Positions 3 through 712 of a DNA stretch of 12,017 nucleotides are shown in pieces (the stretch's first letter is position 1; each line of letters begins with the position of its first letter). Location: contig AUXH01000581.1 in the NCBI GenBank assembly GCA_000482145.1, forward strand, positions 1 through 12,017, written 5' to 3'. Below the pieces are notes generated by a model. That model saw nothing but the letters and a program-made list of their open reading frames with translations. It was not told the origin of the DNA and ran no database searches. Source of the stretch: Strigomonas culicis. Taxonomy: Eukaryota; Euglenozoa; Kinetoplastea; Trypanosomatida; Trypanosomatidae. Made by a program: the position numbers and the translations under genes.

Positions 3-509
3 TTTATGAGTTCTGATGGTTTTTGCGATAGATTTGCTTTTTACTGTGAACGTTTATGTTTTTGTATGTGATTCTATTTAAGAGATATGTTTTTAGCATT
101 TTCTATTTTATTTTGTGTTATGTATTTTATATTTATAAATTGATATTTTGTATTTCATGAAGAGTCTTGAGTCATAGTAGATACTTTGAAAACATCAGAT
201 AAAATATTGCCAGAATGATTTTTTTTATTTTTATTTGGTTTTTTGAAAGCTGTACCTGATAAATTTATGGGTTTGTTTTTGATGGTAATTCTCTTATTCT
301 CTATATTTTTATTTATATTAAATTGTATTTTATGATTTGTATATTGTCGTAGTTCTTTGTTATGATTTACATATTCTTTAATATTGTTTTATAGCATTTT
401 TATGAGTGGTTTTTTAGCTTTGTATGTTATATTGGCATATCCTATTTGAATGGAATTACAATTTTGAGTTTTATTATTATTTATGTTGATTGTTTGTAGA
501 TTAGATTAG
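3..509 (+). CDS. CYb: Apocytochrome b, C-terminal part (5' end outside window)
   Basis: Membrane-embedded subunit of respiratory complex III that carries the b hemes and the quinol sites. The open frame enters from the left edge and gives 168 residues ending Cys-Arg-Leu-Asp then TAG at 507-509. It reads only if TGA is Trp, as in all genes here. The conserved Qo-site motif appears as PEWF (codons 210-221), followed by a long hydrophobic stretch and the loop KAVPDKFMG, which corresponds to the conserved PxKxxG segment after PEWY in other cytochromes b. The family is about 370 residues, so roughly the second half is present. In this group CYb mRNA is edited at its 5' end, which lies outside the window. 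The last codons (AGA TTA GAT TAG) are also the first units of the downstream pentanucleotide array. Identity is near certain. Confidence 0.97.
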
Positions 510-695
510 ATTAGATTAGATTAGATTAGATTAGATTAGATTAGATTAGATTAGATTAGATTAGATTAGATTAGATTAGATTAGATTAGATTAGATTAGA
601 TTAGATTAGATTAGATTAGATTAGATTAGATTAGATTAGATTAAATTAAATTAAATTAAATTAAATTAAATTAAATTAAATTAAATTAGATTAGA
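501..695. repeat. Pentanucleotide tandem array (TTAGA)28 (TTAAA)9 (TTAGA)2
   Basis: There are 39 uninterrupted 5-bp units: 28 TTAGA (501-640), 9 TTAAA (641-685) and 2 TTAGA (686-695). Degenerate AT-rich units (ATAAA, ATAGA) follow to about 705. The array begins within the CYb reading frame: its first two units supply the terminal Leu-Asp codons and the TAG stop. It fills the whole CYb-A6 spacer, so it must be transcribed as CYb 3' UTR, A6 5' leader, or both. Confidence 0.98.
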
Positions 696-712
696 ATAAA
701 ATAGAATTATAA

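Follow-up and report, generated by a model that had tools for sequence, protein, structure and literature searches.

A TTAGA/TTAAA microsatellite probably grown from the CYb stop codon in the maxicircle coding region of Strigomonas culicis

The window analyzed here is an entire contig of 12,017 bases from the 17.7-Mb, 670-contig assembly of Strigomonas culicis. The gene order is the 3' half of CYb, A6, ND2, ND1, COII, MURF2, COI, ND4, and ND5, followed by 82-bp tandem repeats. Pfam matched six of the ten frames scanned (CYb, ND1, COII, COI, ND4, and the first ND5 piece); there was no match for A6, ND2, MURF2, or the second ND5 piece, and these were named from the gene order in the accessible parts of published tables. 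The spacer between CYb and A6, in this kinetoplastid maxicircle coding region, is occupied by an uninterrupted array of 5-bp units. The features of the locus are as follows.

3 to 509, + strand: CYb, 3' half only, ending C-R-L-D-stop (open frame in code 4; Pfam PF00032, E 4e-07; 73% identical to the CYb relative P0001 over 88% of the query)
497 to 509, + strand: seed TAGATTAGATTAG, the final CYb codons and stop, 2.6 units (from the sequence; the CYb primer for T. cruzi Sylvio X10 in PMC3040149 closes with identical letters)
501 to 640, + strand: 28 perfect TTAGA units (from the sequence)
641 to 685, + strand: nine contiguous TTAAA units, a G-to-A variant block (from the sequence)
686 to 695, + strand: two TTAGA units (from the sequence)
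696 to 705, + strand: two decayed units in register, ATAAA and ATAGA (one mismatch each; 0.42-0.64% by chance)
706 to 1391, + strand: A6, with a putative short 5' editing domain beside the array (frame open 705-1391; no Pfam match; placed by gene order and resemblance)

The initial annotation had counted 39 perfect 5-bp units beginning inside the CYb frame, and both statements agree with our counts. Positions 501-695 hold 28 TTAGA, nine TTAAA, and two TTAGA units (195 bp), so that the figure of 39 pools the two kinds of unit. The gene ends in TGT AGA TTA GAT TAG, and its stop codon at 507-509 lies within the run. The exact period of 5 reaches back to 497 through a partial unit TAGA (497-500) in the CYb frame, and the last four codons with the T that precedes them form a 13-nt seed of 2.6 units. 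Tandem Repeats Finder (TRF) delimited the repeat at 497-695, with period 5, 39.8 copies, and 98% matches. Exact period-5 matching runs for up to 147 nt in the array but for no more than 16 nt in the remaining window, and 1000 first-order Markov sequences gave a maximum of 19 nt. These many head-to-tail copies of a unit of 1-6 bp, above chance expectation, define the array as a microsatellite. Exactness ends after 695. An end coordinate of 705, as given earlier, is nevertheless sensible, since 696-705 consists of two one-mismatch units in register. Such neighboring pairs have a frequency of 0.42% across the other places in the window and were present in 0.64% of 20,000 local Markov sequences, in a test made when the coordinate 705 was already known. 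The total is 39 units, or 41 with the two decayed ones.

Within the assembly the array was found only here. A five-unit TTAGA pattern matched 24 overlapping places and a seven-unit TTARA pattern 33, all within 501-695 of this contig, and neither pattern revealed a second locus in the 670 contigs; these counts are lower bounds, as the DNA mode of the scan can skip simple repeats. Elsewhere in the window, TTAGA- or TTAAA-periodic matches on either strand reach 8-10 nt at most. No other contig was found with PF00033 or with the longer CYb relative P0007, and the 5' half of CYb was thus not recovered. The maxicircle is therefore incomplete in this assembly, and other kDNA, including minicircles, may be absent from it.

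The remainder of the contig is compact. The A6/ND2 gap is 10 nt, MURF2 and COI overlap by 10 bp, and the ATGs of ND1 and COII are 9 nt apart. These three cases agree with the earlier statement that all other junctions are about 10 nt or an overlap, but COII/MURF2 could not be pinned down, and the comparison with the CYb-A6 junction is not like for like because A6 looks 5'-edited and stands head-to-tail with CYb. The MURF2/COI overlap (5451-5460) recurs unchanged in the tables for T. cruzi and L. major, as far as these were accessible. The COII frame breaks within 4255-4300, near ...VENLADVMN, and resumes in another frame. This is presumably where the known internal COII editing site would be expected. 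COII is listed as minimally edited in the accessible parts of published tables. The ND5 frame changes at a run of ten T (9885-9894), perhaps because of a homopolymer error in sequencing, perhaps as a true frameshift; according to the accessible text of PMC3040149, unedited genes of T. cruzi strains show comparable indels. The 82-bp tandem repeats (3.3 copies, 11747-12017) represent the divergent region at the contig end, and a 29-base piece of the repeat was found on no other contig of the assembly. COI shares 87% identity with Leptomonas pyrrhocoris and with a Leishmania hertigi cluster (best 120 of 7998 matches), and one nuclear protein of the assembly is 83% identical to one match, 82% to Angomonas deanei, and 79% to Phytomonas. 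These matches identify the source as a trypanosomatid.

On the far side of the array, the first ATG (713-715) is out of the A6 frame, which is open from 705 to 1391, so a short 5' editing domain directly after the array is likely. This domain was placed with the help of known A6 proteins. A6 appears almost wholly genome-encoded, and the putative editing domain spans just a few tens of nucleotides. A6 editing seems more reduced here than in the accessible parts of published tables, where about 300-600 nt are assigned to A6.

The CYb stop and the first ATG are 203 nt apart, and the non-repeat part before that ATG is 17 nt (696-712), or 7 nt past the decayed units. Published CYb-A6 gaps, 11 entries computed from the accessible tables of four papers, span only 37-96 nt, with A6 starts defined differently among the tables because A6 is edited. 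The gap is 37 nt in T. cruzi CL Brener and 41 nt in Esmeraldo (computed from a table in PMC1559615), 37 nt in T. lewisi, and 65, 62, and 47 nt in L. major, L. infantum, and L. braziliensis, respectively (computed from published tables). Five columns in the accessible part of PMC12453231, which lacks the column headings, give 96, 96, 96, 46, and 44 nt. The array accounts for the excess over the relatives, and some of the earlier spacer may have been lost to it as well.

The seed itself is shared with T. cruzi. The CYb primer for T. cruzi Sylvio X10, as printed in PMC3040149, ends in TGTAGATTAGATTAG, the same 15 nt as here, and the primer's frame would place it at the end of the gene. Among the searchable text of open-licence papers that mention 'maxicircle', the seed word occurs in this T. 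cruzi paper alone. Both sequences end in TAG, an unusual stop in the present contig, as the other counted stops are all TAA (5/5: A6, ND2, ND1, COI, and ND4). Twelve CYb relatives were compared at the protein level, of which seven were judged by reading to reach the end of the gene, the other five stopping short or leaving the frame. RLD closes two of the seven (P0001 and P0011), and RLD-like endings are seen in P0006 (RVD), P0008 (RLE), and P0002 (RLF); P0004 and P0007 reach the end without one. The codon usage in parts of seven genes of the contig predicts AGA TTA GAT for RLD in about 25% of cases, and the seed shared with T. cruzi could thus be partly convergent.

CL Brener and Esmeraldo, with spacers of 37 and 41 nt, have no room for a long array. 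T. cruzi therefore offers, from print, a short seed at the orthologous place without an array, in a comparison built on a published primer and table coordinates in which the primer strain is neither of the two tabulated strains. With the same 15 nt in T. cruzi and short gaps in two other strains, the 2.6-unit coding seed is probably older than the array. A COI search of viral contigs and a P0001 search of genome and viral contigs yielded no relatives' loci. The proposal that the array was seeded from the CYb end is supported by the T. cruzi primer, by RLD in two of seven relatives, and by the pattern scans, which found the array at this locus only.

The best explanation, which we hold with good though not full confidence, is a microsatellite born by replication slippage from the 13-nt coding seed. 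The seed would exist at the CYb end for protein-coding reasons, and selection on the CYb C-terminus would keep it and set a floor on unit number, with nothing nearby to impose a ceiling. A single G-to-A unit may have arisen and then spread as a block of nine contiguous TTAAA units, and the distal end would be older and decaying. In taking over part of the old spacer, the array would have left the A6 leader and/or the CYb 3' UTR partly repeat, with no demonstrated role. Indels have been taken as a sign of poor maxicircle replication quality, according to the accessible text of PMC3040149.

The initial annotation regarded expansion as harmless to CYb, and the case is stronger than was claimed. 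Gaining or losing whole units at any point of the pure TTAGA block does not alter the C-terminus (...CRLD-stop) because the sequence before the change is also periodic, and all six frames stay closed. Every frame of the array, on both strands, indeed meets a stop every five codons (code 4), as had been proposed in outline. From CYb to A6 the units lose purity, with 28 TTAGA units first, then the mixed blocks, and the decayed pair last, and this gradient suggests that growth proceeded from the coding end. It fits growth or upkeep on the coding side with decay on the far side, but it is not proof, and slippage inside the array is also possible.

The assembler may instead have inflated or mis-stitched a shorter array or the bare seed. 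The assembly shows its draft state, as the contig starts inside CYb with no 5' half found elsewhere, ends in 82-bp repeats, and carries the ND5 frame change at ten T, and as a contig end elsewhere truncates a GAPDH gene. We nevertheless consider an artefact improbable, given that the ordered 28/9/2 structure with decayed distal units is unlike the expected product of random stitching. Assemblers, moreover, tend to shorten perfect repeats, which counts against inflation. The exact unit count is provisional.

A promoter, processing, or RNA-binding array for A6 and/or CYb, selected to be long, is a somewhat weaker candidate still. The array lies directly upstream of A6, and since just 7-17 nt of non-repeat sequence lead up to the first ATG, A6 could plausibly start inside the repeat. 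At the RNA level, however, the fold of the strand at 490-730 is no better than that of shuffled sequences (z -0.88; 42 of 200 shuffles at least as stable), and Rfam gave 0 matches at gathering scores across the window, so neither the fold nor a curated family marks a structured RNA element. The TAATA[GA]AT motif, the forward motif of the minicircle gRNA-cassette inverted repeat according to the accessible text of PMC12266143, occurs at 10 places in the window and at none within 497-705; an origin of the array from a gRNA cassette was rejected on this ground. The published relatives for which tables were accessible manage with 37-96 nt. Effects on processing, polyadenylation, or guide binding, which had been suggested earlier, thus find no support in the fold or in Rfam, and neutral slippage is the most likely account.

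The array is likely transcribed, and either neighboring mRNA could carry it, because maxicircle transcription in trypanosomes is described as monocistronic, initiation defining the 5' ends and trimming, limited by antisense transcripts, the 3' ends (PMC6789859, accessible part). Under that model the array would belong partly to the CYb 3' UTR and partly to the A6 leader. With so few non-repeat nucleotides ahead of the first ATG in the A6 region, part of the A6 leader may itself consist of repeat.

Insertion of a repeat from the nuclear genome, a minicircle, or the divergent region is very improbable: the array is in phase with the coding seed, the longest periodic matches elsewhere in the window are 8-10 nt, and the scans, with their lower-bound counts in an assembly from which minicircles may be absent, gave no second locus such as the initial annotation had named as a sign of insertion.

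The main value of the array is that it presents a testable case of microsatellite birth. The locus is a clean candidate for such birth from a recognizable coding seed in a gene-packed, multicopy genome region; 20-50 maxicircles per cell are given for L. tarentolae in the accessible text of PMC9743726. Variants in array length could serve as markers of strains and of heteroplasmy. The short non-repeat stretch between the array and A6 also raises the question of whether a simple repeat can contain the start of A6 transcription, a point relevant to maxicircle promoters, about which little is known. A bolder proposal, to which we give little credence, is that the trypanosomatid CYb terminus is a selection-protected microsatellite nursery. 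The pure 2.6-unit seed would be kept, arrays would expand and collapse independently by lineage, the A6 start or 5' leader would lie in the repeat here, and unit number, perhaps heteroplasmic within one network, would tune CYb 3'-end trimming or A6 expression.

Three known systems resemble the array in part. Maxicircles also carry tandem repeats in the divergent region, such as the P5/P12 arrays described in the accessible parts of PMC7169413 and PMC12453231. Those lie outside the coding region, whereas the present array is inside it, between CYb and A6 and not between ND5 and the 12S rRNA. A divergent-region origin was rejected, as the contig's own divergent-region unit is 82 bp long and has no TTAGA-periodic run above 10 nt. 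The CYb 3' end of T. cruzi shares the 15 nt of the Sylvio X10 primer, TGTAGATTAGATTAG (PMC3040149, accessible part), and differs in that the A6 spacer of CL Brener and Esmeraldo is far shorter than the one here (PMC1559615, accessible part). In the searchable open-licence literature we found no report of this array or of a stop-codon-anchored maxicircle microsatellite. Organellar microsatellites have the same short perfect units and slippage-type block structure but, unlike them, the array here begins in the stop codon of a conserved gene. Mitochondrial microsatellites are thus known, and what is new, as far as we have seen, is one anchored in a gene's stop codon within the maxicircle coding region.
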